A stretch of 64,000 nt of DNA from Aquilaria yunnanensis. Its lineage: Eukaryota; Streptophyta; Magnoliopsida; Malvales; Thymelaeaceae. The DNA lies in contig CM077594.1 of NCBI GenBank assembly GCA_039654915.1, forward strand, positions 93,014,893 to 93,078,892, read 5' to 3'. A program made the translations under genes and the position numbers. Of the stretch, positions 8,996 to 38,230 are shown one piece after another. Below the pieces are notes generated by a model that was not told the origin of the DNA, made no database searches, and worked only from the letters and a program-made list of their open reading frames with translations. Positions within the stretch are counted from its first letter, which is position 1. Each line of letters opens with the position of its first letter.

Positions 8996-9327
8996 GACCC
9001 AACTGGGCCAGCTCAAAGGCTCGTCTGCTACAGTATTGCAGCTTCCAATTTTTCATCCCCTTCATTTCTCCTTACTAGATCGGTCAACGGAAACATGTTC
9101 TTTCCCTCACAGCCTCCCAATTTCAGAGCATGGTTCCCATGGCCACCCAAACTGTATTTTTGTATTCCCTTGTGATTTTTCGAGGAAAGAAATTGCCCCT
9201 GGGTTTTGTCTGGTGTGGTCTGAATTCACAACTTCAACCAAACCAACCCCTTACTTACATTTTCAAGGCTACCTGGCCCAGAAAATTTAGAATTATTTTC
9301 TGGAATCACTAGGCACTTGTGATGTTT
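8996..9327. other. left flank of CACTA-1, probably 5' region of F-box copy 1
   Basis: No convincing gene lies here. The sequence ends in TTT next to the CACTA-1 terminus and continues, after the element, at 29108. It may therefore belong to the upstream region of F-box copy 1. Confidence 0.35.
9325..9327. repeat. CACTA-1 target-site duplication TTT (left)
   Basis: TTT directly precedes CACTACAAGGG and is repeated at 29108-29110 directly after the right end. Confidence 0.8.
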
Positions 9328-9344
9328 CACTACAAGGGAAAAGC

Positions 9345-10145
9345 CATTTAGCGACGGCCATTAGCGACGGGCAGCCTTCGCTAAATATGAATTAGCGACG
9401 GCCAACCGTCACTAAAAGGTCCATTGCTTATTCACTCGCCGTTAATTTTTAGCGACGGTTACCGTAGCTAATTAACGACAGCTAAATGTTGCTAAATAGA
9501 CCGTCACAAATTTTTCGGCATTGGTTTCTGCCGACGCGTTAGCGACATTTTGCCGTCGCTAGTTAGTGACGCATATCCGTCGCTAGTTAGTGTAGTTAGT
9601 GACGCATTACCATCGCTAGTTAGTGACATGTAGACGTCACTAGTTTGTGACGCATCGGTGTCGTTAGTTAGTGTAGTTAGTGACGCGTAGCCGTCGCTAG
9701 TTAGTGACGCATAGCCTTCACTAGTTAGTGACGCATAGCCGTCGCTAGTTAGTGACGTGTAGCCTTCGCTAGTTAGTGTAGTTAGTGACGCATAGCCGTC
9801 GCTAGTTAGTGATGCATAGCCGTCGCTAGTTAGTGACGCGTAGTCTTCGCTAGTTAGTGACGTGTAGCCTTCGCTGGTTAGTGTAGTTAGTGACGCATAG
9901 CCGTCGCTAGTTAGTGACGCATAGCCGTCGCTAGTTAGTGACGCATAGCCTTCGCTAGTTAGTGTAGTTAGTGACGCATAGCCTTCGCTAGTTAGTGACG
10001 CATAGCCATCGCTAGTTAGTGACGCATAGCCTTCACTAGTTAGTGACGCATAGCCGTTGCTAGTTAGTGATGCATAGCCGTTGCTAGTTAGTGACGCATA
10101 GCCTTCGCTAGTTAGTGTAGTTAGTGACGCACATCCGTCCCTAAA
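9345..10145. repeat. CACTA-1 left subterminal repeat array
   Basis: Many copies of a roughly 24-bp direct repeat around TAGTGACGCATAGCCGTCGC, with variants ending in CCTTCGCTAGT. They are punctuated by GTTAGTGTAGTTAGTGACGC about every 110-130 bp, and the outer part holds copies of TTAGCGACGGCC in both orientations. In En/Spm elements such subterminal motifs are the binding sites of the second element-encoded protein; here the role is inferred. Confidence 0.85.
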
Positions 10146-10474
10146 ATGCCTGCTAAAACTGACATCCCTGCAGCAGCCGGTAATCCCATCATATGCATCC
10201 CTACGAATTTTAGGATGTCATGGTCAACTATTTCATCAGCAAACCTCAACTGTATATATCGATTTGATACAACCCAAACAAAAAAGTAGTTCTCAATAAT
10301 CCAAAGTTATGTTATACACTTCCAAAAATCATAAACATATCACTTGATATTTAGAATGCATACAGAGTCACAATATATGGCTATCGTACGTACAATCTTA
10401 CTAATTATAGTTGCAACAAGTTCATGGGATATGTTACTACTCTAATGAGAAGCAGTTAGCATGACGATCAGTAC

Positions 10475-12212
10475 CTAACCATCATACTGTGGTGCAGCTG
10501 GCGGAGTCTTCCCAATTGCTTGCCATAATGAAGCCAGCTGATCCTGGTGTCTGCGCTCCGTCTGTGCTAACTGATCCTAATACTGACTCTCCAGTTGTGC
10601 AGTACGCTTATCCATATCCTCTTGTACCTATGATTGCAACTGGCTTATTCTCTGCGAGACTCTCTCCTCGACCCGACGGTCAACCTCATTCTGAAATTGG
10701 GATGTTTCCATGAATGAGATTGGTGCACTAGACCCATCCCCGTAGTATGAACGACGACGACGACCAGGTACCAAATGACTCTCTGAACCCATTCCTGGGA
10801 TGCGCCCCTTATTTTTTCCACCAGCAATCTCTGCAAACAGCAATGCCTTATCGAACTCAGCTTCACCGTCTGAACATTGTGTTATTTCCTCTACCTCTGC
10901 AAGATATTGAGCCTGTATAATGCTCCATGTTAATCAAGTAACCAACAGTAGTATATGGTTAAGAATATACTTAAGTAGTATCTACTAGGTCGTTCATACT
11001 TACCTCAAAATTTTTCATCTTCTTATTCACCTTCTTTCCATCTTTCTTTGTGTTACACTTGTTCCATGGTTTGAAGAAGCCGGGATCCCTTTTCTCCGGA
11101 TCTGCTTCCTGCTGCAAGGTAATAAGCAGGCATAATTTGTTAGTTACATACTTATTATGAAAAATCATAATTAACTCTAAATTTTTTTTCTTACCATCTT
11201 CAGCCTATGTCCTGAAACTGAGACTCTACCTCCAACATAATTTGCCTTATCTTCACCAGATGCACATCTAATCTGGCTCATCCTAGATGACATATCCTTG
11301 AACTCAGGTGAATCCCACCAAGCTTCAAGTGCCTCTAGTGTCTCTGTCGTCATCCAATTCGCTTTTTCTTTTCGCTTTGGCGGATTTTTCTGCCGTCTTA
11401 TTTTTTCATATGCTTGCATCAAGCGCCTCCTTCCCAATTTGCAGAAAATGGCAAATATGCGATTATGATGAACTGGATCCCACGAACATTTTGTCTGAAA
11501 AAGTTCAACAAAGTGAATTAAAGTTTGATGTTGTATAATAATTTCAATAATTTTTTATCAATAATGAACCTGAAAGACGCTAAACCATTGGTCAACAGCA
11601 CCGGCCTTCGCAGCTTCCTCCCATGACCTATATGGTCCATGAAAATGCCCTTGATGCAATGAGCTATGTGGTCCTGCGCAGCGTATGGAACGAAGCTACA
11701 CAATGAAAATATATATCAGTATTGTCAATAAGCAGTGCACAATGAAACAAATAAGTTAACAAAATGAGGTTTAATAATTGCCATTACCATGTTTCAGAAT
11801 AAGGTGATATATGAATACGTCGGGAGACCATGCCCGCAGATACGTCGGGGCTCAAAGATTGCCTGCCACCATCCAAGGAGTCTGACTGATCAGAGGACTC
11901 GTTGGTCTGAGCTCGAGGCAATCTGCTCTCAGTTGGCGTACCACCACGCCGACTTGAGTGCGATGATCCTGTGCCTCCACTCTCCAATGGGACACCCATC
12001 TCTGGTACTATCGTATCAGCGGGAGGTGATGGTCCATGTATATGTCGAGTAATATCGACAACCGTATGCCTCGATGGTGGCTTCCCTCCACTACTGCTCA
12101 TTGCTCTAAGGCCAATAGCATTTGCAAAGTCTTTCACCAGGTTCTTCTTTGGCAGTCCCCGCCTCCTATACTGGTTTGGTGGGGTACCCCCACCGTCTTC
12201 TCTTTCAGCCAT
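10475..12212 (-). pseudogene. CACTA-1 second gene (Transposase_24 / Ptta-En/Spm type), broken
   Basis: Five exons are readable on the minus strand: 11788-12212 (start Met, then AEREDGGG), 11570-11695, 11195-11494, 11004-11111 and 10912-10475. They correspond one to one with the second gene of CACTA-2. Exon 3 has the family core (ANWMTTETLEALEAWWDSPE). Exon 4 carries ADPEKRDPGFFKPW. Exon 5 carries GSESHLVPGRRRR and a coiled-coil-like Gln/Arg-rich tail. Damage: exon 2 changes frame near 11640 (FVPYAAQDH at its start, YRSWEEAAKAGAVDQWFSVF in another frame at its end), and a TAG at 10628-10630 replaces a likely CAG about 50 codons before the terminal stop at 10475-10477. The family protein is thought to bind subterminal repeats and assist transposition. 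This copy is unlikely to make it. Confidence 0.75.
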
Positions 12213-12376
12213 TTCCACAATACTGAAACAAACATTACAAGAAGAACAAATGTGTCGGTATATTAAGAATTGTTCTGCTACATACTGGTTCTTCACATCG
12301 TGTCTATTATAACAAACTTATCTTGAATACATAAATTAAAAACATTACAACATGCAATCTACTTTGAACTACAATG

Positions 12377-15300
12377 TTAAACATCATCAGTATGATGATC
12401 GTCCTCTTCGGTTTCTGAATCATCGAGTTCAACATCACTTTCCTCATCATCCTCCGTGCTTCTTGTGTCTTCATCCTCCGTCTCATCTTCTTCCATCACA
12501 TCATTAGTTTGACCCGTCTCCTCATCAATAGTTTCACCCATATTTATATCACCTAGATTGGCAATTGGGTCATCATGAATCACTTATGCAACCTGCTCCC
12601 CAACTGTGTCTTGAAAAGCATCAGTATCTTCTGTTATTTCATAATTTACAATACGTCTTCGCTTTATCTTAAGCACTGCCCACCAACCAACCTTCTCTTT
12701 TGACTTACTTGGGTAAGGGGTGTAATACACTTGATCCGCTTGTGATGCAAAGATAAATGGATCATACTTCGGGTACCTCCGGTTGCACATTACTTCAACA
12801 AGTTTATACTGTTTATGAATGCGAGTCCCACGTTCCGGTGTCGTGTCAAACCAGTCACACCTAACTAAGACAACGTTCTTATAAGGCATGCCAGGGTACT
12901 CCAGTTGAATGATTTCTTGAACTACTCCATAAAAATTAGTCTCCACATTATTAGTTGATCCAGTGCATTTTATGCACACGCCACTGTTATATGTTGATTT
13001 CCCCTCACCCCATGCAACAGTCCAGAATTTGTATCCATTTACAAAAAATACAGGCCAGCACTCCACTCGACGTGAAGTGCCATAGGCTACATCCCATAGC
13101 ATTTGACTTACTTCGCCATTAGCACTGTCACTAACCTACAGGAAGTAAAACAGTGTTGTGAGAGTCATGATGCTACTTTATAGTGATATCAAGTAACAAG
13201 ACTTACATAATTTTGTAGCCATGTTGGGAAATCCTTCTCAATTCTCTCATCAACTTCTAAGTCAGATATGTTTGGTGCCATCAGATGCAAGAACTGGACA
13301 AACTTTCTATTCTCAGGTCACAAGGTGATGTGAAAGATGTTAGTATTTTGTTAAACGAATGAGGATAACTTATCAAATTATATTAATTTACTACGTACGT
13401 GATATATGGTTTTATCTCATCACAATTGAAAAGGATATACAATGTCGCAGCTTCCAGCTCCATATCATTCAAGTACCGATACTTTGACAGTCCATGTGGA
13501 CGTCCAGGATATGTGAATATTTTCCACAATGATGAGTCTTGTGGAATTAGGCCACCATCATCATTCTTTGGGACCCTAGTACCCATTCGGGGAATATGAG
13601 ACTCAAAATAGTAAGAGCAAAAAGTTGATGTCTCCTCAATCAAGTAGGCATTGCATATCAGCCCTTTAACACGGGCCTTATTCAATACTCTATGCTTAAG
13701 ATTCCCTAAACACCTGCTTATTAAAGAGCATGTTATTACGTATAGAAATTGAACAAATATTGATGTAATTAAATTAAAGCGTACCGTTCAAATGGATACA
13801 TCCAACGATACTGAACAGGTCCACCAATTAATGCTTCATATGCCAAGTGGACAGGTAAATGTTCCATACAGTCGAAGAAGGCCGGTGGGAAAATCCTCTC
13901 CAACTTGCATAGTATAATTGGGATACTACTTTGAAATGCCTGAAGATCATCAACATGTAATTCAGGCAAGCAAAGATCCCGGAAGAATTGGCTCAATTCA
14001 GTTAATGGTTTCCATATGTTCTCCGGGAGTGCCTGAAACACTAGGGGAAGTAAGCGTTGCATGAATACATGACAATCATGACTTTTCATGCCAAACATTC
14101 GTGTGGAGCTATTGTCGATACACTTGCTGAAGTTTGACGCGTACCCATCTGGAAGTTTTAGGGACTTTACCCCATATTAACACATCAGACCTTTACGATG
14201 CGGTCAGTGTGAATGCATCCTTAGGTTTGAATACACCCCCACCTTCTAAGTCTATCACATTCAACTCGGGACGCTTACATAGTATCTGTATATCTTTACG
14301 TGCCTTTACATTGTCTTTCGTTTTATTCTTTATATCCATGACAATATTGAATATATTGTCAAAGACATTCTTTTCAATATGCATGATATCAAGGTTGTGC
14401 TGGATGAGGTTGGTTCTCCAATAAGGTAATGTCCAAAAGATGCTACGCTTTGTCCAATTGTGTGTTTCCCCATAACCTGGCATCTTGCATATGTTCCCAG
14501 TTTCAATGACTGCTAGCAATTGATACACACGAAACCAAATATCTTCCCCTGTCACGCGCACAGGAGGGTCGGACTTCTCATATTTCCCCTTTGTAAAAGA
14601 AACTTTATTTTTTCTATATGGGTGTTCAATATCCAAGAACTGACGATGGCAGTCAAAAAATGATGTTTTACGGCCGTGCTGTAGTGTAAATGCCTTAGAC
14701 TTTTCCATGCATATGGGAGAAGAAAGTCTCCCATGCGTCATCCACCCGAATAACATGCCATAGGCTGGGAAGTCACTAATGGTCCACATCAGTGCCGCTC
14801 GAAGGTGAAAGTTTTGCTTAAGTGACACGTCCCATGTTTCAACTCCGTCATCCCATAAAAGTTTTAACTCTTCTATTAACGGCTGTAGATAAACATCTAT
14901 TTTCTGCCTTGGACTACGTGGTCCTGGTATCATGGAGATTAAGAGCATATATGGACGCTTCATGCACATCCATGGTGGAAGGTTATATGGAGTGACTATC
15001 ACAGGCCAGCAAGAGTACTGTCTACCAGAGGATCCAAAAGGATTGAACCCATCAGAAGACAGTCCAAGTCGAACATTTCGAGCTTCTGCTCCAAACCAAG
15101 GGTATGTCCTATCAAAATGCCTCAATGCTTCAGCATCAGAAGGATGTTTCAGTACATTTGTGGTAGGGGCATGTACCTTATGCCATCGCATGTGCTCTGC
15201 TGTAGTAGGTGATGCATATAGTCGTTGAAGTCTAGGTATTAGTGGGAGGTGATGCATGGTCTTCAATGCTCGATCTTTCCCCACGTTTTCATTTCTTGGC

Positions 15301-15965
15301 TTATAACGTGGAGCATTACAGAATTTGCAACTACTGGCATCTTGGTCACCTTTCCAATACAACATGCAATCATTTACACAAACATCAATTTTTATATGAG
15401 AAAGTCCCAAATGGGATACCAACTTCTTCGTCTCGTACCATGTACTCGGCATCTTGCTGTCACTTGGTTGAGTATCCCTCATCAACTTCGCAATGCCATC
15501 ATAACATCCCACGGACATATTGTATTCCGACATCAAATTTAACAAACGAACTGCAGCTGAGAGTTCAGAATGTTTTTCACAACCATCCCACAAAGGTTTT
15601 GATGCTGAAGCAAGGACGTCATAGAAACATCGGGCATCAGCATTCGGCTCCTCATCCACCTCATAAGTGATGGAAGGATGATTAGGACCTACAGCGTCAA
15701 ACACCATTCTCTCAAACTGGTTAACTGAAGAACAAGCCTCTTCGTACTGCTCATGAAACCGGTATGGCTGCGGCAGACCCACTAAATTAACGGGTTCACC
15801 ATGAGATGTCCAATTCCAGTACATCGGCATGAACCCCGACTTATACAGATGAACCCTTACTTTGTCAGAAGATCGAAATTGTAGGTTCTTACATTTCCAG
15901 CATGGGCACCTAATTTGGTCCTCATTCATGAACGGAAGCTGAGTACATGCAAAGCTTATATTGCA
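12377..15965 (-). pseudogene. CACTA-1 TNP2-type transposase gene, broken
   Basis: This is the main En/Spm transposase, read on the minus strand. A 578-codon stretch (15929-14193) carries the zinc-knuckle-like CPCWKCKNLQF and the Transposase_21 core (for example TYPWFGAEARNVRLGLSSDG, NIVMDIKNKTKDNVKARKDI). The C-terminal parts follow: DUF4218-like GGPVQYRWMYPFER (to 13785), exon 13399-13713 (SHIPRMGTRVP), exon 13207-13306, and DUF4216-like exon 12584-13135. Damage: frame shifts between about 14100 and 14193; the N-terminal WMY box near 15990 is out of frame; a TAA at 12584-12586 separates the acidic tail. A 71-bp intron (13714-13784) lies where CACTA-2 has none. CACTA-2 gives the undamaged comparison. 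Confidence 0.85.
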
Positions 15966-17250
15966 ACTATATTGTAACGTTTACTGTACATCCATTTACG
16001 CTCATTTTCCATTCTATTGCAATCAAAGTACACTGGTAAATGAGATAATATAGTCGTTGATCCCTTATTATTTCTGATCATGTCAAACTATATGTATCAG
16101 AACATAACAGCACATATAAAATAATTCTCTAACTGGACAAAACTAATAATTAGCACTCAACACATAAGAACACAGATATGGAGCTGGCAACTATATGGAT
16201 AACATTAACGTTGTATGCATGGAACTGTAATAATACAATATAGATTCTTAGGGCATGTACCAATTAGTTGAATAGCATCAATGTTATACATTATTAGTTA
16301 ACCTTTCTAACAACATAGAACTGATGTAATGAAACTTTATGATACGAGTTACATACTTCTATTAACGGGCATACTGGTCCTTCATATTTTTATTTGGACA
16401 TGGTACACGAATAGAACAAGATAATTAAAGTTTACTTCATCACATAGTCTAGCAATATTTGACTTAAATTGAGGTGATTAAGTAATGGAGTTTAGGGTTT
16501 AAGTTGGTCGTTTTGAATTCGTTCTTCAACATCAAATTATATACATGTTGATTTTGTGGTTATTGTTCGCTTGATTTTCCGACAATCCAATAGTAGAATC
16601 CATTACTAGGGGGACTGTATGCAGTCATCTATTTTCCGTCTACCATAAAAAATTTTGTCCATCTACTTCGCCTTACATATACATAACTATACATAACTAT
16701 ATATTTCCATCTACCATAAACCTTTGCCTTATATAATTGCAGACGTCTTTCTGTGTTGATGTCATACTTTTTTCAAGAAATGCAACGTGACCATTTCCTT
16801 ATTACTACCAATTAGTGTATATCTGTAATGTGGATAACTGTAATTTTTTCCATATTACATGGTTCGCCTTTTTTAAAAAATTATATGATAATACTGTAAT
16901 TTATGTTTTGAACGTGGGGCGACACAGAACAGTTGAACTAAATTTATTTCATAATTCCAGCATGCCTTATAACGTACCAGTATATGAATACTAAACCATG
17001 ATACCAACACAAACTATTATAACTATATGTCAAAGTTTTGGGTAGCTAGTACATGATGTTACCTCGCCATATGTAACACAGTAAAACTTATCATGCATTC
17101 AAAAGTCTTTAAACACAAACTTTCAACAATATTTGTCAATTCTCTACCCAAACAAGTAGTGTAATGTGACATTTGGTGTTAGATATACATGTGGTTGAAA
17201 CTAATTTCCATAACTTTTCCTGCCTATAATACAAAATTAAAGAGACTTAC
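15966..17250. other. CACTA-1 interior, no gene recognised
   Basis: AT-rich sequence. Apart from a WMYSKRY remnant of the transposase N-terminus near 15985-16000 on the minus strand, I see no coding region. Confidence 0.45.
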
Positions 17251-17496
17251 AGTTAACTGTGATATACAAGCAGTACCAAGTCTTTGTCTGTCCCACCTAA
17301 AACCAGCTGGTAGCAGAGGTAAAGTAATTCGCTTCAATGCCCTGTAACAGTAGTGATTCAGTTTGCACATATTCTCAAAATTTTCTCCAGATAATTTATT
17401 TCATAAGAGGTGGAAGCAATTAAGGACCATTACCTTGCTTCTTGATGCTCTATTAATGAACTATCTACAATTTTGTACTCGTCTCTCGTCTTTAAG
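17251..17496 (-). pseudogene. captured host exon pair of unknown gene
   Basis: Two candidate exons on the minus strand, 17434-17496 and 17251-17341, have proper AG acceptors and GT donors and join in frame across a 92-bp intron. The peptide includes EYKIVDSSLIEHQEA and then LKRITLPLLPAGFRWDRQRL. It is neither transposase nor retrotransposon protein, and I do not recognise the family. Its lie between the transposase and the other captured exons, on the same strand, suggests that it is part of the captured set. Confidence 0.45.
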
Positions 17497-17829
17497 CTGC
17501 TGACCATACACGGATAACACATTTCAGAAAATTTCAGAACTGAAAAAATGCTCATTCAATCAACCTAAAAGCCCTACAACATAACTTGCTTACCGTAAGT
17601 AACTTTCTCGTCTTTTATTATTGTTTTTTAGGAACAAAAAAAACTTCCCATGGACTGATCACGTTTTTTAGCATCTGATTTTGTTGTATCTCCTTTTCAG
17701 GACAGCAGAGAAAGCAAAAGGTGAAAGAACTGGAAACCAAGACTCCTCCCAAAGAGAAGGACTAGCTTATAGGCTTGCTCGAGGGTGGGGGCGGTCTGCT
17801 CAGTTGTTAATTTTGGATAAATACCGTGG

Positions 17830-20095
17830 CTTCTAGAGTTTCACTTGGTTCAGGTTTAAAACATTTGAAACCTGAGATCTTGTATGCATATGTTTTAAAT
17901 GCCTTATAAATTGCATAAAGTTTGTGCATCTTTTAATCAAGCTAACTCAAATAATAGAATGAAACATGCTAATTCTATTTAGGATATGTTTACTTTGCTG
18001 CATTGCATCGAATTCCTTGTATTAGATCTGTTGATTTAATTCCTTTTGGGACTGTGGTATTAAGACTTCCACATGGTTCCTTCTATATTATCTTCTCGAG
18101 CACCATGAATGTATGCACCCCCATCCCAGATTATGCAGCACGTGCCTCTTTTATTCTTTAACAACCAGTATTTTTCTACCACACTTATGTTCAAATATTG
18201 CAACTGAGTCCAGCTGTTCACTGGAGTTCTGAAATCCGGTCTGTAGGAAACCCCTTACAAACAGAATTTGCTGCACAATTAGCGGCCCTCTTTTTGTGTA
18301 CAAGGGATCCAAACTAGTCTAGTCCATGGGTGTTGCTGCTAATTACCTTGAACAAGAAATGTACCATTTATTTTCCCTGGGAAGTTGAATGAAGCTTCAG
18401 GGCTTCACTAGCAACTAGAGAATCCGCCTCAGTTATAGCAGTAGAAAAGTTAAAGGTGAACACGTGAACAAGTCCATTTTTTAGTAACGGACTGATCTGG
18501 AAATTTTCAAGCCAAAATTATTTTTCCTTCTCAAAGTCAAACCTGTGTTTGACCTGCTCCAACATGCCATTTTATGCAGGTTTTTCAACTTATAACCCAC
18601 AACTCAAGGGTCATTTTGAAGTTCTACTGCTTCAAACTCAGCCATACTTTCCAGTTATATCTCTTTAGTCATTTAAGACTTGTTCCAGCTTTAACCCCTA
18701 AAATTTAAAGTCTTCTTCAAGGAGTTTGAAGCATGTTTTATTCTGCTGGTTGTCTTCGCAAAATTTTTGGGTTTTAAGGGTTTTTTTGAGTTCCAAGCTC
18801 CAAATGACTCCAAACTTTGCAGTCATCTTCTCTTTGTCAAAATAAACTTATCTCATGCCCAAAACACCCATTTGGAAGCTTGCCACCGAAAGTTTGAAGC
18901 ATGTTTCTTCTGCTGTCAGTCTTAGCAGAAATTAAGAAATCAAAAAGCCTTATTGAGTTCTAGTGCTCCAAATCCAATCAAATTTTTCAGGAAACTTCTC
19001 ATTACTATTTAGAGGTTGTTCAAACTTATAAATCCCCATTATGAGGCTTTCCTTGTTATATTTGAAGCAACAATGCTCTTGCTAATGTCTTAACATAAAT
19101 GTTCATCTTAAGGGTGGCTTTGGAGTTTTGTTGCTCCAATTCATACCAAACTTTGGGGGAATCTTATTTCAACCATTTGAAACTTGTTTGAAGCTTTAAA
19201 TCTCATTTTAGGACTGTTTTCCCTAAGGTTTGAAGCAACTTTTCATGTACAAGCCAATGTAGCAAAAATTAAACTTAGGCGGTCATTTACTTTTCCACTG
19301 CTTCAAACCCAACCAAAACTTGTAGTACATTTTATATTGAATTAGAAAAATTGCTCTAATTCTTATTCCTCATTTTTGTAGCCATTCTACTAAAGTTTGA
19401 ATCATGAACAATTTTACAGGCTTAAGAGCTAAAACATTTGGTTTGTTGAGTTTACTATCTTCTGCATGTCATAACTCAAATAAAACTTTGGAATAATGTT
19501 TCATTATCTTCATGTATGCTGCTCAACTCATGAAACCCAATAAAACACTATATTTACCAAATTATTGTTAAATTGGCTTGGTCGTGTCATACTTGTAACT
19601 TCCAACCCTTAGCTTAGATATTTAACCAAAACAAGTGTATAACATAAATGCTTGATCATAGGAAGAAAAAAAATACCTAAGCCAATTTCTAAGATTTTGT
19701 GTGCACGTGTAGGTTCATATAAGAAACATGTTCACAGAAGCAAACTAAGATACCTAAGCCAATTTCTAAGATTTAGTCGACTAACTAGTTCATTGGAGCT
19801 TAAGATAAAAGTTTATGTTTCTGGACATGTTTTAATTCTGGTCCTTCCTGAAATCTACTGTTTTCATCTGAGAAACCAAATGGGTGCTAAATCAAATTCG
19901 AATGTCTTGTAATCAAAGTGTCTTTTCCTAAGGTATTAATGGCTAGCTTTCTGTTTGTGGAAGTAATGGTTTGTTAATGAAACCTGTGGTGGCAGGCATT
20001 GGAGAAAGCTTACTATGCAAGCACATAGAAATTAATAAAATTTTCACTTATTGCCTAATGTATGTGCTTAAGCATGCATTAGGCTGGGTGTGTGT
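17830..20095 (+). repeat. degenerate tandem repeats ending at an LTR-like boundary
   Basis: From about 18560 to 19500 a unit of roughly 190 bp recurs four or five times with strong drift. Recurring words are TTTGAAGCATGTTT, TTCTGCTG, CTGCTTCAAAC and CTCCAAAT. The block ends with TGTTGTAACA at 20086-20095, just before a primer-binding-like site. It may be a decayed LTR with internal repeats; the start is not resolved. Confidence 0.35.
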
Positions 20096-21511
20096 TGTAA
20101 CAAAGTGGTACCAGAGCTGGTTAGTCTAAGATCTATAGTCCTAGAGAGCATAAGTGTCACATGCCACATCTTAGTTAGCAAAAGTAAGAACACTAGGTGG
20201 TTGAGACTCAGTTATACTGATTTTTCAAGTGCAAGAAACAGGATTAGTAAGCTGGAAACTGATCCTGAAGAAAAATCAGAACTGGCAGTATATTGAAAAG
20301 GCAGTTTAGGAAGAAAAGTTAAAAACTGAGGTTTTTTAAGCATGTTACAAGGGTTTAAATGGACCTGTGAGCATTGTTAGAAGTGTTTCTTTTGTTCCTA
20401 ATTTTAAATTTTAATACAGGTTGGTTCTAGATCACTGTTTTTTATTACTTTAACAGTGGCTCAATTTAGTATACTATTAGGTAATAAATACTAATGGGAT
20501 ATATTTAGAGCATGTGATGTCGATGTTATGGTAAAGATTATGACATTGATTACATGGCTAAGTTAATAATGAAGGAATTGAAAAGACATGCTTGAAGAAT
20601 AGTCCTAGATGAGAGCTTCTAAGCTCTAGTTCCTGTACTGAGCATAGGGATTCTTAGGCTACAACTAGTCACCAATTAATTGTATTTAGCTATTTAAAGA
20701 TTGATTTTTAGTTGTTATTATTGAATGCATACAAGTCATGATTTTGTAATGGAATTATAAAGCAGATTCCACTAAAATAAAGGCTGTTTCATGTACTTTC
20801 AAATAAAATTTGATCTATCTTGGTTTATGTAGCAATATTTCCAGTAATAAATCATGAGCATTTGCCCATAAACCAATTTGAATTATCTATATGAGATATA
20901 CTAAGCTTTCTGTGGATTTTTGCTTAATGATCACGAAGTTTGATTGATGGTTCAACTTTCAAAACTTCATGTACATGTTTAGTTATGTATTTAAAACATG
21001 TTGGACAGAGAATATACTTACTCTAAGTTGAACCCACTTAGATTAAACTAAGTTTTAAACTCAGTAATCCCCTTAGGATGACAATACTTAACCTTGCTAC
21101 CCAAGTTATATTAAGGAACTATGGTTGTCACTATTTAGTGTGGTGTAAGGATTCTAAAATTAAGAACTATTTCTTAAGATAAAAGTTTGCTTACCTATAA
21201 TCTAGTTATGAGTCTTCCTTATGCTCACAAGTCAAATTAGTTTATTTTAAGCCCTAACTCTTCAATTACACCTAATGGGAAGCTTGATTGCCTCTAATCT
21301 AACTAACCCATTATGTTCTTATCTAGTATTCTGTGAGATTTCTGGACAATATTGGAGGGTAGAACTGCGTTCCCATGACCTCTAAAACTGAATAATAATA
21401 GAAACAGAGGGTGTTGGTGAAGATTGCAAGATTATTCAAGAGAGAAGAAGGCTTTGACCAAGGTTTGACACATAAAGTCACCAGAAGGATCCTGAATGTA
21501 AGGGGGAAAAT
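20096..21511 (+). mobile_element. LTR-retrotransposon debris: PBS-like to PPT-like interval
   Basis: TGGTACCAGAGC near 20105 differs by one base from TGGTATCAGAGC, the usual complement of plant initiator Met tRNA. The purine tract AAGGGGGAAAA at about 21501-21511 is followed by TGTGACATCTGGG, which looks like an LTR start. The 1.4-kb interval has no gag or pol I can recognise, so it would be a non-autonomous or gutted element lying inside CACTA-1. The two would-be LTRs do not look alike by eye, so the call is tentative. Confidence 0.35.
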
Positions 21512-23329
21512 GTGACATCTGGGACCTATTATAGGTTCTTTGCGTTGGAACAAGTTTCAAATGACCAAAAGGAGTTATATGTATGCCCCTGAATGAAAAA
21601 TTTCCAGATTTTGAAGCAAATGTGGCTGGAACCTAGAATCTGCAGTTTTGGGAAGGTCATTGCAAAGCTGAAGTGTGGAAACCTAATTTGAGCCTTCTTG
21701 ATTGGGTTTCTGGAATTGAAAGGGTTCCATGGTGATAATGAGAATATGAATGCAAAGTTTTGTTGATTTATGAAATGAGGAAGGCAGTGAACTCAACAAA
21801 CTTTAGTCTTTTAGCCTTTAAGATTGCAGCCCATGTTCATTCTTGAACCTTTAAGTAAAGGACTTCATAAATGAGGCCTAAGAGTTGCGGTAAGTTTATT
21901 ATGTCAAAAGGAAGGTTAAGTACTGTTTGGTTGAATTTGAAGCAGTAGAAATGAAAAATGACCCTCCATGAGCCTAAGTTCTCCTTAATGGCCAGCAAAA
22001 GAAGAGTTTCCTCAAATTGCAGGAATCGTTTAGCTTGCTATGATGGACTTGTTTCGAACCTTAAACTTGGTTTTGAACTTTGGTGTTGCTATTTCGTCTA
22101 AACAGTTTTTCAAACTGTTTTAAAGCTGGAAGTGGTCCTAGACTCTTGCTGTAAGTATCCTTGCTGCCTGAAATGTTGGGAATTTTACCCTGTGGGCGAT
22201 GTACTATGGAAACAACAGTAGCTAATATTAAACTTGATGGGTTTTGAAGAAGTCTGCTAACTTTCTGGGTTCTTGGCTGTAACTAAAGGTTCAAAGATTT
22301 TACAGTGCTGAAATAAGGTTGGTTAAATCCTCACTTTCCTATAAGTAGCTTTGGATGCTTTCTGGTTTAGCAAAAACTCAGATTTCTTTATGAGAACTGA
22401 ACCCTTTCTGTGTATGCATGCTCGGTTTAGTCAGTAGGTGGCTTAAATGGTCTATAAGTAGTTCTGTTAAATCCTATGTATGAACTCTTAGCAACAAATG
22501 GTCTGTGAAATGAAGATATCGTGTTTTATTACTACACTAGGTATCTACTGGTATAAAGTATTAAATGGTAGCCTTTTTTGTGGTGTTTTAATTAATTGCA
22601 GCTGTGGACATATCAAGCCAAGATGCAGAATTTTTCAGGTTTGGTTCGTTCAGGAACTGGAGATAGTTTGACTCAACCATTGACTTTTTATTCCAGCAAG
22701 AATTTGTCCCTAAGGGCTGGTTTTATAAGTGTCCGTTTATAATTAAAACTTGTTGGAGTGAAAGGTAGGGCTAACTTAGCTACTGATATCAAAATGGTGT
22801 TTCAATGTTGCATTTCTGCGAGTAGTTTACTGCTGCAGTGTTCTTGGTGTGCAGCAACCTAGTTGAGTGTTTTGTTTTCAAATTGTTTCATGCTTATAAC
22901 ACTTATAACACATAAATGTGTCTCTGATTATTTCGCTTTAAGAAAGGCTATATTTGGAGTTAACCTAAGGATCATGAAGCTTCTTTTGCCATGAGGCATG
23001 AAGCAAAGAGGAGCAATGTTGCCACAGTTGGAGTTGAGGGTCCGGTTGCACAGTTTGCCCAACAAGTTGACTTTTGAAATTTGGGAGTTATAGGAAGCAA
23101 CTCAAACTACTGAACTGTATGTTTGCATAAGTCTGACTTGTAAATTTTGTTTTGAAACACAAAACAGTTCGGTTTAGACAGTAAAATATGATCAGAATTT
23201 AGTGCACTTCTGGCTATGGCAAGGGCTTGGTATTTTGGGAACAAATAAATACTTGTAACCCAGACAAAGAAAAAAAATATTCCATCCATTTGTAGTTATT
23301 GCTAAGGTGAAGGATGAAGGTAGATTTAC

Positions 23330-23641
23330 CTTTGCTTGTCTGTGGAGAACCTCTAACAATTTGTATGGCCGTTACTGTGATATACTCAGAGAACAATGAA
23401 GAGACATTGGCTTCAGAAACAATCTTTGGCAGCATGCGAACAAAGAGCTTATGCTCTGACAAGTGCCTTTACAAGTGCCTGAAAAAGTACAGAAAAAGAA
23501 CCATTTTATGTAGGTAATGAAAATGGATGCTTTTATAACTCATATGAGACAGCATCAGCAATTAAAGAACCTAGGAGAACATAACATACCTAGTCTTTCC
23601 AGCTCACCATCTGCATACTTTACTTGCAAAGGACTAGACGC
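23330..23641 (-). pseudogene. captured BRN1-like (Bruno/CELF type) RRM exons
   Basis: Exon 23590-23641 encodes ASSPLQVKYADGELERL. Exon 23330-23455 continues it (EHKLFVRMLPKIVSEANVSS and later IVRGSPQTSKG). In plant BRN1-type RNA-binding proteins the same run ends RRM1's linker and opens RRM2. Both exons keep AG/GT splice signals, the joined frame is open, and the split codon (G|AG) restores the family's Glu. Relative to the family, the Gly after the RNP-like LFV is replaced and the IKDLQ part is altered, so it has drifted without stops. Later RRM2 exons are missing. It lies inside CACTA-1, downstream of captured V-ATPase exons in the same orientation, and reads as a transduplicated fragment. 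Confidence 0.8.
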
Positions 23642-24241
23642 CTGAATGAGAGGAAAAGGAGGACGCCCTTCAGTCAATTAGCTAAAATTCCACTGTAATA
23701 AAGATCAATATAATAGTCCTAGTTAGCATGAATACAACATTCGTGTGATAGCATATAACATATTTATTGCATAAAATTTCCCCTGGTACACTTTGATTAT
23801 CATTTTCAACTAAAGTTCAGTAACATAAATCTTGCCATACACATAAGCAAATAGCTAGTCAGGTGAAGGAAACAAAGCAACTAAGAGTGGTGATAACTGC
23901 ACTTTCTATTAGCAACAAGAACATTTGAGTCATCACCCATAAAAAAACCATCTATAGAGAAAAGTTAGAAACAAAATAAAGCTGTAGTAAATTGCAGACT
24001 GGACAAAACTCTCATAATGCAATCAACACTCATTGTCAAATGCCAAAAAGGCATGCACTTATACAAGGAAATATAGAAACCTGGGAAAAAAATAGACAAT
24101 CAAGTGCTCTGATTCAGAAACTACTAATGAATTAAACTGTGAAAATCATCAGGTTGATGAAACTAGAACTAGAAATAGAATAAACATGGAGGAAACTGGT
24201 TCAACCCATTGAACTAAAGCTGAAAAGTCAAGAAACTTCAC

Positions 24242-24644
24242 CTCCCCAGTGAATTGCACAGTTGTGTATTTGTTATCGATTCCAGATGTTCCTTCAAAGA
24301 CCTGGAAATATGATAAAGGAAACAGCAAAAAGTGTAACTGCCAGTAGAGATAAAAATTCTAAGAAACAAAGCAGCAGCAGATGGAAAAGTGAAACCTGCA
24401 CTATAGCTTTCTCTCCATCTACTTCCAGCACTTGACCGCGCCTTGTTGTTTCATCTCCAAGGGGAATATTAACAATCTCCGGAAACTTTGGACCCTGAAA
24501 CAATTTAAAATTAATTAAATCTACAAAAAAATGAATTGGAAAATAACTAAAAGTAAACATAACCAAGATGAAAAGAAACAACTTCCACCTTAACTTTATC
24601 TAAAATGACCAGTGGCCCAGCAACACCAAATACAGTCCTATACT
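24242..24644 (-). pseudogene. captured V-ATPase subunit B exons
   Basis: Three consecutive exons on the minus strand, 24589-24644, 24396-24494 and 24242-24301, encode [19 protein letters not shown], then [20 protein letters not shown] with [13 protein letters not shown], then [20 protein letters not shown]. This is the N-terminal beta-barrel region of vacuolar H+-ATPase subunit B, nearly unchanged. All splice sites are canonical and there is no stop. The rest of the roughly 490-residue subunit (nucleotide-binding and C-terminal domains) is absent. The last exon ends in phase 0, exactly the phase of the next captured exon (BRN1-like, 23641), so a spliced transcript would fuse the two proteins in frame. 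Confidence 0.85.
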
Positions 24645-25346
24645 CTGCAAATCAGAAAACTCGTCATATGATTCATCTTCGAACTGATACTCTAGAATCC
24701 ACTTATATGCATGTAAGTATGTATAGTACCAATTTGTGGAAACCAATTGAACTCTGACTGCTAAATAGGTTTGAAGCAGGGAACCATGATTTTAAATTGA
24801 ATTACATGGATCATCAATTCTTTTAGAATTGACATTAGTAAAATTTGACAGTTCGTTTGAACGTATATTTACAGCTTTACTTTGTTTCTAACTTCCAATA
24901 GACCTAGCAACAGACTCTTAGTTGTTAACAAATGCACTGCTCAAGTCATCATTCACATATAATAACAGAACAATTAGAGCGACAGAAACATTTTTCAATA
25001 ATTATCAAACACAGCAATATGGAAGATAAGTTGCCTAATTCCAAAACCACATTGACAAGCGACCATAATTGTGCTATCCACAATAGTACATATCCCCACA
25101 TACGCACTCATGATACAGACCTAATTACATCATTTGTTACCTGAATCAACAGACAGAAAGCACACAGATTTCTGTGTGTTTTTAGTTACGTTCACATGTA
25201 AGGCTTTTCTGTGATGGAGCACAAGTATGTTGTGCAAGTATATCTGATGGCCATGAATGAAATCATATGAAATTCTCACCCAAAATTTCAGTTAATACTA
25301 CAATTGCAAGTTGCAAGTTACAAGTAAAAAATAAAGAAAAATCCAC

Positions 25347-26106
25347 CTTATCCTTTTGATGACTGCCAATTAGAAGAAGATTGCCTTCAATATTAATGCT
25401 TGTGATCACAACCTGAATAATGCCCAACATCCAAATATTTGTTACATAGTAGGTGTTAAATCCAAAACAAGAGAAGGCATGACATGTTTTCCAGTTAAAC
25501 ACAAAAAGATTCAGAAATTATTACTAGTAGTTTCTGATGAAGTAACTTTTCCTTAAAATGAAAAGTTAGATCCATAAACCATCAGAATTAAGAAATTAAA
25601 GACAATGCACAGCTTAAGTGAGATGAATGAAGTTTGAAATCAGTAGGCAGTAGGAAAACCTTCTATGCACAACTGTGGTGACTCAATATGTTTACTGACC
25701 ATGTCAATCACACATTCTTTACCTAAGGTCATTTGAGTATGAAATCTCTAATCACAGTTCATTAATAACAGAAGGACAACAACACCTCACTACTAATTTC
25801 ATAGGATCTTTGGGTAAAAAATGTTCATTTCCTCAAACAATTATTTTTTAACAGACAGAAAAATACAGCATGAAATGCTCAGTATGCAAGAATATTGAGC
25901 TGCCTGATAACTTTGCCCACTTTGTTTACAATAATTTCACCACCTCTTTCTTTTTTTTTACCAGATACATGTCCTTATCAGTGCATCTATGTGTATGTGA
26001 GAAGAAGATGTTGTCCAGCATGCACCACCCAGTACAGACAAACCTTTGAAGGACTAGCAGCATGAAGATATTGCATGCTTTCCGTCCATCGTCTTCTGTG
26101 ACAATC
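25347..26106 (-). pseudogene. captured host exons of unidentified gene
   Basis: Candidate exons 26044-26106 and 25347-25412 on the minus strand have AG acceptors and GT donors and are both phase 0. They encode RRRWTESMQYLHAASPSK followed by VVITSINIEGNLLLIGSHQK. I do not recognise the protein. The frame does not run on into the V-ATPase exons without another exon of suitable phase between 24645 and 25346. Confidence 0.4.
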
Positions 26107-26932
26107 CTGAAAAGTGAGTAAGAAGAAGCCAGTTGTCAATGAAAAGCTTTAGTGTGTCATACAAAAGGAAACATAGACATATTCTACAAGAAAAATTGTT
26201 CAAAATGTGGTTCAGAATGTTCATGATGTTGAAATTGATGCTCACAATCTCACTGAGCAACGCAAAGCAAATATTATGAAGATTCATAAGCTATATGACT
26301 AAATAAGACAAAACAACACAACTATATATACCAAAGAAAAGCAAGTTGTAAACCTTTATTTCTCATAAAATGTGTCATAAAATTGGGGACCAGTTAGAGG
26401 TGCAAACCGACCTCAACTCTAGACTCCATTAAAAGTAACATCAGGAGGTCATCTTTAAAAGTAACCTCAATCATAATAAGGGTGTATCTTTGAGAGATGC
26501 TTAGAATAACAAAAAACCAATGGAGTAGGCATGGTACCTTAGTAAGATAGGTGAACACTGGATGAAGAATAAGGTTCCCCCAATAGTAGCTAAAGTAACC
26601 ACAATTTGCACAAAAAACAATGGTGGCCTTCGAAGTATTCCTGAAGCACAAGATGATTATTGGACAAGATGAATAGATGATAGGTGTTGGAATGTTTCAA
26701 GCTGGATAACACCAGGTACAGTCATTAAACTAAGAAACTAATTGTACACATGTCCCATATGAACAAACAATTGGCAGTATCACAGAAGACAAACAGAGGA
26801 GAAACAAACAATAAGAAGCAGTGCACAATCAAATCCATATAAACTAAACACAGTGGCTTCAAATCCCTATGGAAATTAACAATGGCAGAAACGAACAACA
26901 TCAGACGCATAAACGAAAAACATCAGACTTAC

Positions 26933-27174
26933 TATTGTTGATTGGTAGTTCAAATCGCGAAGCAGGAAGGGACTTTCATGGCCAGTCGTCGCTCCTACTG
27001 CGGCGATTACAATGTCAACAACAACAAGTTGATGTCCGAAACTAACATGGTAGAAAGAATAAATCAAAATGCCGCTCGAAGGCGAACCCTAAATAGTACT
27101 AATGATTCGAGCCTAAATTCGATTTCAAGTGAATGTGAGAGTGGTTTACCTGAAATAGAAACGATTTGAACCAT
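26933..27174 (-). pseudogene. possible first exons of the captured chimeric gene
   Basis: An ATG at 27172-27174 opens a 25-nt exon (MVQIVSIS, then a split codon) with a GT donor at 27149-27148. Exon 26933-26997 follows with an AG acceptor and GT donor and stays in frame (GATTGHESPFLLRDLNYQST). It ends in phase 0, as needed by the exon at 26106. The protein is unrecognised. The position next to the right subterminal repeats would place the promoter in or near the transposon end. This is a splice-phase model, not a homology call. Confidence 0.35.
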
Positions 27175-27329
27175 GATTCCGAGTTTCAACGTAATCGTGC
27201 CGGTGGAGAGGACCGATCGACTCGTGGGAAGCAGAGAAGGGGGATCGTTCTTGCACCGTATGTCGTTTTAGGGGAGCCTCGCGTAAGTGAGAAAGCTGAG
27301 CTGGGGAAATAAAAGGATTGAAGTTGCGA

Positions 27330-29090
27330 CGGCGAACCCTCGCAACAATAGCGACGGCAAAATGTCGCAAAGCCTTTTACCGACATGTGGCCTTCGCTAA
27401 CCATTGTAATACATTTACGCCAAATTATAAAATGGCTAAGCCTCTGCCAATAAACGTATTAAAATTAATTTAATTTTAATTAACATGATTTTTTATTAAA
27501 TTACCTAAATTTTCTTAAAAGAGTTTAGCTCAGTAAATAGATAAATAATTCTAATTACCCAAGTTATAATTTGTAAACACAAAATTTAACCAGATACTCA
27601 CATATAACGAAACAAAATTGTGAAAAAATTAACATAAACAATAACTAAATCAAATTTAACATAAACAATAATATTATGTTTATTAATCAAGAATTTAACA
27701 TTGCTAAGGCCAAGCAAAAATCAATTGAATTTCAATTGATTTTCACTTCTTTTTTTCCTTTTCTAGAAAATTAATTAAGATAGATAATTTTGTTAACCTA
27801 AATTATAACCTAAATTTTTTACCATAAACACATAGATCCATATATCTGAATTAAAAAAATCCTAAGTGTTGGAACTAATCTATACGAGTGAGGGTTGCGT
27901 GTAGAAAAATTTACCTGATACGTAGTGAAGGGTATTAGGATTTTTGCGAGAGCAAATCGTAAATAAATAAGCCTTCGCTAAATTAGCGAAGGTAACCCGT
28001 AACTAGCACTACATAAAATTTAGTGACGGCTAACCTTCGCTAAATTAGCGAGGGCAAGGCATCACTAACTTTAGTGACGTCTAACCGTCGCTAACTTAGT
28101 GAGGGAAAGCCGTCACTAACACTATCACTAATTTAGTGACGGTTAGCCTTTGGTAAATTAGCGAGGGCAAGCCGTCACTAAATTTAATGACACATACCCG
28201 TCGCTAAATTAGTGAGGGCAAGACGTCACTACCAAGATTCTAAATTAGTGACGGTTAGCCTTCGCTAAAGTAGCAAGGGCAACCTGTCACTAAACTTAGT
28301 GAGGGCTACTGTCACTAAATTAGCGACGGTAAGCCTTCACTAACTATATCCAATTATTTTGGTACGCATACCCTTCGCTAACTTACTCAGCGCAAACCGT
28401 TCGTATAAGTTACTGACAGGTAACCATCACTCTTAAAACTTTATTCTTACATTTTATGAAAAATAACTGAGTTAGTTAATAAATCTTTTAACCATAAAAT
28501 AAAATTTAGTAACAGTTATAGTTTTTTTGTACACACATATGGATACATCGATCCATACTTTTTAATTACAAAGTAAACTGAAAGCAATTAAAATTTATCA
28601 TTATCAAAAAAAATGAAAAAATACGAGGCTGAAAATTCTCATAAAAAGCCAGTCATAATTAATCATCGCTAGTCTTTGGAATATTACCAACTAAAGCTGC
28701 ATGTAATTTTTGAATGGCTCACTAAAATTAGCGACGGCTAATACTCACTAAATTAGCGAAGGCAAAGAGTCGCTAAATTAGCGAAGGCAAAGAGTCGCTA
28801 AATTAGCGACGGCAAATAGTCGCAAAACATCCGGTGAAAGATTAGCGACGGCTGAACGTCGCTAATTTTTAGCGACGTATTATCGTCGCTAAAATTAGCG
28901 ACTACCTGCCTTCGCTAACTTAGAGAAGGCAAGCCGTCACCAAAATTAGCGACTACCTGCCTTCGCTAAATTAGCGACGGCAACACGTCGCTAAAAATTA
29001 GCGACGCATAGCCGTCGCTAAACTTTCACCAGACTTTTAGTGACTATTTGCCGTCGCTAATTTGCGACCGTTTTTAGCCGTCGCTAAATG
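27330..29090. repeat. CACTA-1 right subterminal repeat array
   Basis: Copies of TTAGCGACGGC, TTCGCTAAATTAGCGA and GCCGTCGCTAA in both orientations, dense at 27960-28420 and 28730-29090, with a small outlying cluster at 27330-27400. They use the same motif core as the left array but mostly as inverted pairs, not a regular 24-bp tandem. They are probably transposase or accessory-protein binding sites. Confidence 0.82.
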
Positions 29091-29403
29091 CGGTTTTTCT
29101 AGAAGTGTTTGTATCCTATACTATGACTATATATTTGCTTGCTTGTTCTTGTATCCATTTGTTGAAATTCATCGGTGCTTTCGTTCGGTTGTTACTTCAA
29201 CTGATTGGTCTTGCTTTGGGTGGGATGGTGATTCAGTGGGTAACACTTATTCAACATAGTTGGTCTCAATTCCTAAACATTTTTCGTCTTCCTGCAAGTG
29301 GAGATTTTGACTCTCTACATGATGATGTGCTAGTCCAAATCTTAAGCAGGGTCCCAAATATAGCCAACATATTTAATTATTTGTATTTTCAAGTTAATTA
29401 AAT

Positions 29404-29937: not shown

Positions 29938-32900
29938 TAGAGGTGGAAGGTGGGCCGGGTTGGCCCAGATCGAACTGGGACCGCCCCGCAGTCAAACCCG
30001 CCCCGCCCCGCCCCGCCCCGCAAGAGGGCCGCAATTTTATGGGCCCAATAGGAGGAGGGGGACGCAAAAAAGACCGGCCCGGACCAGGCAAACCCGTCAG
30101 CCCGGACCACCGACCCGGACCGGACCGCCCCGCCCCGCCCCGCCCTGCCGACCCACGCACAACGGCTCCCTGCATAACGTAAACCTGCAAAAAAAATTTA
30201 AAAAAAAGGGCTAATTACACAGCAGGCCCTCCAACAGTTTTATGCTCCATTTCAGCCCCCAAAATTTCATTTTTGCCCCTCCCAACAACTAAATTTCAAG
30301 GACTTTTTGGTCAAACTAATTTTTCCCCTCCCCCTATAAATACCAATGCCATTTTCACTCAATCCTCACACAATCACTTAACCTCTCTTCTTCATCTACT
30401 ATATTCTCTCAACCATTCTCCTTATTTTCTTAATTTCTTCCAAATTTCTTACTAATCTCTCCCTAATATCTTCATAATCCTCTCTTGATTTTGCATTAAT
30501 CACTACTATTAGTACGTGAGTCATGGCTTCAAAAGGAAAGGGCAAGTCAACAGATAGTTCATCTTCCCGCAACACCGGCCTCCGAGCCTTGTTCCGTCGT
30601 CGATCTGGGCCCGCCGATAAAGGCATTTCAATTCAAGAGTTTCATGACGATGATGCCGGAATCGATATGACGAATTACGATTTGGGTCTCGACGATCAAT
30701 TATTCGATGATGAAGTGGAAGAGTTGGATGCGATGGCGTCTGGGAATCCGTCAACAGAACCGACGCCTACAAGTCATGAACCCGGCGTGGAGGGAACTCA
30801 AGCACAAGGTAAATCCACGAGACTAACTACTTGGGTTTGGGAGCATTATGAGCTCATAAACGAAGGGGAGTCGAGGTACGGAAAATGCAAACATTGCGGG
30901 AAAAATTTTGTGTATAGAAAGAATTCCGGCACTGGAACGCTGAAGAGGCATCTTGAAAATCAAATTGCTAACGTCCTCCCTAATACCGGGACTAGTTCTG
31001 GAGGACAAACACAACTTGGGTCTACAACCGACGCCGGCGGACCAGGTATATTTCGTTTTAACCAACAATCTTGTAGAGAAGGTATGGTAAATTGGATGAT
31101 GCTTACCGAAAAACCTTTTTCACAAGCTGAAGATGTCCACCTAGAATCTTGGATAAAATCACAATTAAATCCTGCATTTAGAAAAGTATCTAGGAAAACT
31201 GCTAGGAAAGAAAGCTTTAGACAATTTGAAACCGGAAAATCAGATTTGCAAGCATATTTTTCTGCTCTTGATCATTGTGTAGCATTTACTTCTGATATGT
31301 GGACATCACCTATAGGTCAATCATTCTATTGTGTTACTTCTCATTGGATTCATTCTGATTGGATAATGCAAAAATGAATTTTGTCATTTAAGGTTATTGA
31401 AACAGATCATACTGGTTTTCAAATATTTAATCGTATTTTAGAAACTTTACGTGATTATTTTTGTACTGATAAAGGTCTGTGCATTTCATTTGATAATGCT
31501 TCAAATAATGATGTTGCTGCTCGCCTTTTGAGTCAAAACTTAAAACTACCGCTCAACGGTGCATTTTTTCACGTTAGATGCATGTGTCATATTTTAAACA
31601 TTTGTGTGCAAAAAGGTTTAGAAGTTCTCCAAAATGAGATTTTGCCTATTCGAAACTCATTAAAATATTTGATGTCCAGACCTGCTATTTTTCGTGAATT
31701 TAAAAGCTTTTGTATTGAAAATCAAAAACCATTTTCTTAGAAACGGTTTAAATTGGATTGCCCAACCCGCTAGAACTCCACATTTTTTATGTTGCAAGAT
31801 GCATTACCGTATGCAAATTTGTTGTCACATTTCATGAATTTACAAATGGGTTCTGAATTTCTTACGACTGAAATTTGGGAGAAATGTTCCAAAACCGGTG
31901 AATTGCTTAAGTTTTTTTACGAGGCAACTGAATTTTTCTCTGGTGTTTACTACCCAACAAGTCATCAAGTTTTGTTTCATTTAGTGAACATCACATATGC
32001 TTTACATCAATTTAAAAATGATGAGTTGTTAAAACTGACTGTCGAAGCCATGCGGGCTAAGTGGCTTCAATATTTCTCAAACATTCCACCTATCTTTTTA
32101 GTCACTTCTTTACTTGACCCGTATGTAAAATTAACGGGCACAACAAAACTGCTTGAAGGAATTTTTCATACTTATTTAGAATGTCTCATATAAATGTTTT
32201 GGCTATGTCTGCTTCTGCTTCCGAGTACTTGCATTCTTTATATAAGTTATATTGTGAGCGGCATTCGGATAAGGTAAGATCCGAAGCTTCTCAAACTGAG
32301 CCTCCAAGGAGATCAATCTCCTCAAGATTCAACCCGGCGCTCCAAATGCTCAAACGACCTCGACCGATGACATCGGGATTAGCTGAGGTCGATGACTATC
32401 TTAACACATCATTTGAGACAAGCGACCTCGACATCTTGGAGTGGTGGAAACAAAAGAGATCAAGATTTCCGATCTTGTCGATAATCGCACAAGAAATTCT
32501 TGCCGTTCCAGTATCGACCGTCTCATCTGAGGCAGCGTTTAGTGCCGGAAAACGGGTGATAACAGAAAAACGGTCAAGATTGACACCCGACGCGGTAGAA
32601 GTATGCGTGTGCAACCGAGATTGGGGCCTCGCAGCACTCCGGCATCAAGACCAAAAGAGTTCGGATGATGAGGTAATATCTGATACCGAGAGTTGAATTT
32701 TTTTCTTTCAATCATACATGTAGTTTGTATTTGATCTGATTATGCTGTTCAACACAGATCATAAGTTTCTATTATTTATCATTTTTGGAACGTTTTTGCC
32801 ATTTCAAAATGTAAGGCACGTTCCGATTATTTGTAAGTGCCGTTTGACTTTTTAACTTAATAAAACTTACACCGGGGGTGGTGTTTTTTCTTAAAAATAT

Positions 32901-38050: not shown

Positions 38051-38230
38051 CTACATTATTATGAAATCCCATACAAAAGTTTACATAACGTAAATTCAAA
38101 CATTGAAATAAAACTTGCTCAATCATATTGTAGGCACCAGGTTAAAGTTTCAGTTGCTCTTTACATATATATTAAAAGTTAATTACTAAACGAGAATATT
38201 ACATAATACAATAACATATGCACGTTTACA

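Follow-up and report, generated by a model that had tools for sequence, protein, structure and literature searches.

How does a plant transposon come to hold pieces of several host genes, and does an open reading frame that spans two of those pieces represent a new gene? Both questions are raised by a CACTA transposon on the minus strand of a 64,000-nucleotide stretch of the Aquilaria yunnanensis genome (GenBank assembly GCA_039654915.1, contig CM077594.1, positions 93,014,893 to 93,078,892), hereafter "the window". The element occupies positions 9328–29107 (19,780 bp). We propose that fragments of three host genes, those for BRN1, pyridoxal kinase and V-ATPase subunit B, were captured serially by template switching and that the captured pieces are now decaying neutrally; we put the probability of this reading at roughly 85%. 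CACTA elements are already known to capture fragments of host genes. What is unusual here is that the donors, the intermediates and most of the joins are found in one genome. The way in which cut-and-paste transposons obtain host pieces has mostly been argued from models. With three donors, copies in which the later pieces are missing, and the completed element all in a single genome, serial template switching becomes testable base by base.

Two of the captured pieces make up the open frame. On the minus strand, the V-ATPase B piece (23960–24894) contributes exons at 24644–24589, 24494–24396 and 24301–24242, and the BRN1 piece (23257–23828; two exons and their intron) contributes exons at 23641–23590 and 23455–23330. 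All of these exons have intact GT/AG splice sites, and together they form a single open frame of 130 codons. The junction between the two sets of exons is phase 0, since the parental introns there are of that phase. An earlier reading of the window from its letters alone (the sequence-only reading) had placed the exons in this way, on one strand, free of stops and joined in phase, and that description holds. Residues 1–71 of the fused frame match plant V-ATPase B, far above chance (E = 3.4e-35 against solved structures; ATP-synt_ab_N, E = 1.3e-15), and the remainder matches plant BRN1. The BRN1 part is weaker in structure and Pfam libraries (CELF1, whole-sequence E = 2.6e-05; RRM_1, E = 2.1e-04, just over the cut-off, in one search and E = 0.0014, under the cut-off, in another). 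It also matches named plant BRN1 proteins and a BRN1 gene in the same genome. Each domain is only partly present in the fused frame. Among the best 120 of 515 protein matches, the sole sequence covering 99% of the fused frame (P0055) is a V-ATPase sequence only.

Where did these pieces originate? We searched the 842-Mb assembly (345 contigs; the window element is on C2), scoring the best candidates only, such that all copy counts are lower bounds. The BRN1 piece returned 12 rows. Ten are near-identical places (87–100%), and the remaining two belong to a second BRN gene, on C3. The place on C4 (around C4:74521175–74521484) is the BRN1 donor: further BRN1 exons flank it on either side, and the rest of the 20 kb examined there does not match the element. 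The nine other places are copies of the element, namely the window element, C3a, C7, C8a, C5a, C5b, C8b, C6 and C8c. Seven of these (C3a, C7, C8a, C5a, C5b, C8b and C6) match a CACTA end within the DNA examined; C8c matches the core at 17266–17608, and its match to the right core is ~14 kb away. C5a and C5b (L018–L021) are ~32 kb apart on C5, and these neighbours may have undergone cargo exchange or conversion. The V-ATPase B piece occurs in nearly identical form at three places, in the window, in C3a and at C1:110.65 Mb. The last of these is the donor, with exons that extend well past the captured part; the captured piece is 95% identical to L030 over exons and introns (23960–24876). C7 and C6 each have a further V-ATPase B locus, which resembles the piece mainly in exons. 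The V-ATPase B-like sequence at C6:19187514–19190737 (L033, L035) has stops within the exon matches and is perhaps a pseudogene. A genome search for parental V-ATPase B and BRN1 loci, with comparison of their introns, had been suggested by the sequence-only reading; both donors were found, and the introns match.

The third captured gene was recognized from its donor only, having been missed by Pfam and structure searches of the window and by a search with a 43-residue piece. Window positions 24890–26382 and 23825–23966 match a locus at C1:91.73 Mb (L037) at 95–96%, introns included. The frames of this locus, joined by eye, correspond to pyridoxal kinase (1lhp, E = 7.3e-29; Phos_pyr_kin, E = 1.3e-11). 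A second pyridoxal kinase-like locus, at C4:91.13 Mb (L036), is 83–88% similar. The upstream part of the captured piece (24890–26382, minus strand; 95% to the donor) includes exons at 26106–26044 and 25412–25347, and the downstream part (23825–23966, minus strand) is intron, matching donor positions 3568–3710 at 95.8%; the V-ATPase B piece is nested within the pyridoxal kinase piece. Exon 26106–26044 has a 1-nt deletion relative to the donor, causing a frameshift, and the same exon is changed otherwise in C5a and C8b. As expected for transduplication, all three donors (BRN1 on C4, V-ATPase B and pyridoxal kinase on C1) are located elsewhere, match the element in exons and introns, and have exons outside the captured part.

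The distribution of the three pieces among the places found is nested. BRN1 is present in nine copies, pyridoxal kinase in four of those nine (window, C3a, C5a and C8b), and V-ATPase B in two of those four (window and C3a). In C7, C8a, C5b, C6 and C8c, the sequence runs past 23828 into donor-like BRN1 intron. Hence, BRN1 was captured before pyridoxal kinase. C5a and C8b retain 167 bp of the pyridoxal kinase piece that is replaced by V-ATPase B in the window, and the pyridoxal kinase donor has the same 167 bp, with one exon within it. Hence, the V-ATPase B piece was captured last. Divergence from the donors fits this order, at 9% for the BRN1 block and 5% for the V-ATPase B and pyridoxal kinase pieces. 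Two side observations concern other cargo. Judging by distances, C3a has ~8 kb of other DNA between the equivalents of window positions 24714 and 25347, probably a nested insertion. Outside the BRN1 block, what C7 and C8a carry as cargo matched no Pfam family in a search of the sense strand only.

How were the pieces joined? Five joins could be resolved, all in one element, and four of them have microhomology: 4 bp between BRN1 and pyridoxal kinase (ATAA; random frequency 0.021), 7 bp between pyridoxal kinase and V-ATPase B (AAAAGTT; 0.0008), 7 bp where V-ATPase B passes into an inverted copy of its own other end (TACAGCT; 0.001), and 5 bp where the inverted copy leads back to pyridoxal kinase (AACTT; 0.008). 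The inverted copy is 25 nt long (24870–24894, from 23962–23986) and fits a strand switch. Drawn from one element, this pattern is of the kind that template switching in repair synthesis leaves. The CACTA family, of the En/Spm, TNP2 type, holds its foreign DNA in a bay that separates the transposase region from the right end. We propose that host DNA was copied to this bay serially, first BRN1, then pyridoxal kinase, and then V-ATPase B within the pyridoxal kinase piece. Most likely, a gap from excision or a stalled fork was being filled by repair synthesis, and the template was switched at short matches. The pieces retained their introns, such that splice sites came along with them. If the region is transcribed, the expected products are chimeric RNAs, mostly non-functional, in which the pieces serve as cassette exons.

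An alternative route for the capture is the model proposed, according to a review (PMC13317346), for Arabidopsis Pack-CACTA elements, in which two adjacent elements with a gene between them undergo aberrant excision. Close neighbours of this kind do exist in the genome, C5a and C5b being an example. However, the donors are on C4 and at two distant places on C1 (91.7 and 110.7 Mb), and the element is on C2. Furthermore, the pieces are nested, one of them replacing 167 bp of another, and four of the five joins show microhomology, in addition to the inverted 25-nt copy. We consider this route improbable.

Is the fused frame a functional gene? For the BRN1 exons of the window, comparison with the donor gives 3.3 synonymous and 10.7 nonsynonymous changes. 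The proportion of synonymous differences (pS) is 0.084 and that of nonsynonymous differences (pN) is 0.080, a ratio of about 0.95 that is near intron decay (0.098 in the introns). For comparison, pS is 0.55 and pN 0.066 between two of this genome's BRN genes. The window V-ATPase B exons have 2 synonymous and 4 nonsynonymous changes relative to the donor (pS 0.038, pN 0.025; introns 0.054), and 0 synonymous and 6 nonsynonymous changes relative to C3a. When all nine copies are compared with one another, the exons (divergence 0.093) are no less diverged than introns and flanks (0.065). A substitution-rate check on the captured exons, another suggestion of the sequence-only reading, therefore finds no constraint on BRN1. 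In five of the nine copies (window, C7, C8a, C6 and C8c, the last having lost its acceptor AG) the BRN1 frame is open; stops interrupt it in C3a, C5a, C5b and C8b. V-ATPase B and BRN1 occur together in two of the copies found; the frame is open in the window and has an in-frame stop in C3a. The window copy has residues that none of 13 relatives shares at 6 V-ATPase B positions, and residues that none of 5 relatives shares at 9 BRN1 positions. Two of the 6 unusual V-ATPase B residues are also present in the donor, and 4 are therefore the element's own changes. At the few sites available, the frame shows no sign of purifying selection. It is no surprise that a frame should still be open in decayed exons, since the simulated neutral probability of having no stop is high (0.87 for V-ATPase B with 4 changes; 0.60–0.69 for BRN1 with 12–9 changes; the simulation started from the present window sequence, before the donors were identified), and the chance of a phase match is 1/3.

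It could be argued that the V-ATPase B-BRN1 fusion is nonetheless a functional new gene whose exons are joined by splicing and then translated, perhaps with a start codon supplied by the transposon. The frame is open and its exons have GT/AG sites, and the phase at the end of the element's leader (ATG at 27174) is compatible with V-ATPase B exon 1, giving a predicted 178-residue frame with a start and a stop. This longer frame requires that the pyridoxal kinase exons are skipped and that the last intron is read through. The leader, with its ATG and GT donor, is found in all seven copies aligned, with a base changed before the donor in C5b and a small duplication in C5a. However, the BRN1 exons have changed at nearly the rate of introns, the six differences between the window and C3a in the V-ATPase B exons are all nonsynonymous, and an in-frame stop interrupts the one further copy found to carry both pieces. 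The domains are partial, and the frame carries residues absent from all relatives compared. Splicing poses a further difficulty: inclusion of the pyridoxal kinase exons would introduce stops, and a competing AG with a better pyrimidine run is located upstream of the BRN1 exon 2 acceptor. Use of this AG would start the exon at 23478 and then lead to a stop; the competing CAG is missing in the C4 donor, C8c and C6. From these comparisons, a functional fusion gene appears very improbable, and we give equally little credence to a broader version in which the leader exon splices to the V-ATPase B and BRN1 exons to yield the 178-residue protein and the element, by refilling its bay serially, tests fusions from its own promoter. 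On this evidence, the fusion is probably not a kept gene and the pieces appear to decay neutrally. An in-frame fusion within a transposon need not represent a new gene.

Several observations weigh against serial capture by template switching followed by neutral decay. The fifth join, between pyridoxal kinase and the element at 26382, has ~2 bp of shared sequence (with C5b taken as the element side), which is at chance level. C5a and C5b are 99.3% identical in the BRN1 block, yet pyridoxal kinase is present only in C5a. Trees of different element segments disagree. Thus, the copies have also recombined, and no single simple tree yields the order of capture. The distribution of the copies is itself a lower bound. 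With regard to neutral decay, the codon counts are small (14 changes for BRN1, 6 for V-ATPase B), and two comparisons with few changes lean the other way: BRN1 in C8c (pN 0.037, pS 0.102) and V-ATPase B in C3a (pN 0.012, pS 0.019).

The sequence-only reading depended on the ends at 9328 and 29107 belonging to one element, and this is borne out. The terminal inverted repeats are CACTACAAGGGAAAAGCC... and CACTTCTAGAAAAACCGC...; the left end reads CACTACAAGGGAAAAGCCATTTAGCGACGGC and the right end, from the opposite side, CACTTCTAGAAAAACCGCATTTAGCGACGGC, such that the element starts with CACTAC at 9328 and, read from outside, with CACTTC at 29107. A 3-bp target duplication is present in all three elements for which both ends were located (window, TTT at 9325–9327 and 29108–29110; C8a, ATG/ATG; C5b, AAT/AAT). 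Subterminal repeats are found at both ends, including an exact motif (TTAGCGACGG/CCGTCGCTAA). That the ends belong to two elements, or to a nested insertion mimicking one, is scarcely credible: in A+T-rich DNA a TTT duplication carries little weight, but the terminal repeats match, the exact subterminal motif occurs close to both ends and nowhere between, and sister elements have the same two ends with duplications of their own.

The left core of the family (9328–17645, minus strand) is 92–95% identical in C3a, C7, C8a, C5b and C8b, with partial matches in C5a and C6. In the left third of the element, on the minus strand, is the transposase region, comprising the first part of a TNP2 transposase (14193–15980; PF02992, Transposase_21, E = 5.3e-81), and DUF4218 (13769–14176; E = 7e-26) and DUF4216 (12584–13135; E = 8.4e-22), which together span 12584–14176. 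The closest relatives of the transposase among the matches listed are plant transposases, at about 54–58% identity. A stop and a frame change within 14150–14215 break the window copy; they are absent from all five sister copies aligned there. Since the element holds transposase sequence, it differs from Pack-CACTA elements, which are defined as being without it. In the available text of packFinder (PMC8903248), an element with a transposase match is classed as autonomous or derived from an autonomous element. The right part of the element (26383–29107, minus strand) includes the leader region, whose ATG is at 27174 and whose donor follows 27150, the subterminal repeats and the terminal repeat; from 26757 on it is widely shared within the family (C5a, C5b, C8b, C8a, C7, C6 and further places). 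Within the bay, 18600–22150 has diverged repeats ~335 bp apart together with inverted partners, and is partly common to C8a and C5b.

How many genes were captured? The sequence-only reading suggested pieces of at least two and perhaps four genes, from further candidate exons at 27174–26933, 26106–25347 and 17496–17251. Several donors did contribute, and three are now identified. The 26106–25347 region is captured, as frameshifted pyridoxal kinase; the other two regions are common to the sister copies and are therefore the transposon's own DNA. The region at 17251–17496 (minus strand) is transposon core, 87–97% identical in six sister copies, and has no conserved frame, with in-frame stops within 17341–17251 in C3a and C7. 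It has no protein relative in solved structures (one chance row, E = 1.1), and none of eight large-set candidates matched at E <= 10. Phase compatibility among the extra exons carries little weight: two-exon chains compatible in phase number 111 on the minus strand, as compared with 117 +/- 61 in 30 shuffles, which is no excess over chance, and the pyridoxal kinase exon is frameshifted. The six frames of 17250–27172 matched no Pfam family apart from weak RRM_1 and ATP-synt_ab_N rows, and one plus-strand frame of 16000–27400 had no match in solved structures. A plus-strand frame near 17707–17838, considered as a captured C-terminus, was rejected as it had no match.

Other mobile elements are present in the window. 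A second CACTA region (36432–41892, minus strand) has an uninterrupted 862-aa TNP2 transposase (Transposase_21, E = 2.3e-83; DUF4218; Transpos_assoc) with DUF4216 adjoining, and its coding parts are about 67–70% identical to those of the element described here. Near the end of the latter is the remnant of a hAT-type transposase (30520–32696, plus strand), with a BED zinc finger and a hAT dimerisation domain in separate frames. A retrotransposon gag sequence is located at 60332–61084 (plus strand; Retrotrans_gag, E = 3.2e-11).

How does this element compare with known systems? In the open-licence literature, we found no paper that joins captured CACTA cargo with "V-ATPase subunit B" or "pyridoxal kinase". 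The closest parallel is Tgm-Express1, a soybean CACTA element that, in the sections of the report consulted (PMC1947982), carries five host gene fragments and gives rise to chimeric transcripts and open reading frames. Both elements hold several unrelated host fragments with introns and splice sites (five there, three identified here), and Tgm-Express1 likewise has in-frame chimeras of two genes (about 70 aa of UP and 64 aa of CDC2). Tgm-Express1 is 5.7 kb long and, as described there, is inserted within a host gene that supplies chimeric RNAs proven by reverse transcription PCR. The window element is 20 kb long and has transposase remnants, and its donors and sister copies reveal the order of capture. 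Chenopodium CACTA elements (PMC8978399) are similarly long, with host fragments 5ʹ of ORF1, as in the window element, and the grapevine elements (PMC2528002) are also long, with captured fragments and transduplication; as far as the accounts were compared, both differ from the present case in being without a nested donor series with resolved joins. With respect to mechanism, the available description of gap filling and FoSTeST in animal Pack-TIR (terminal inverted repeat) elements (PMC8277862) resembles our proposal in having microhomology at breakpoints and multicopy spread after capture. The microhomology reported there is 1–36 bp with a median of 2 bp, in contrast to the 4–7 bp at four joins, and ~2 bp at the fifth, in the Aquilaria element.

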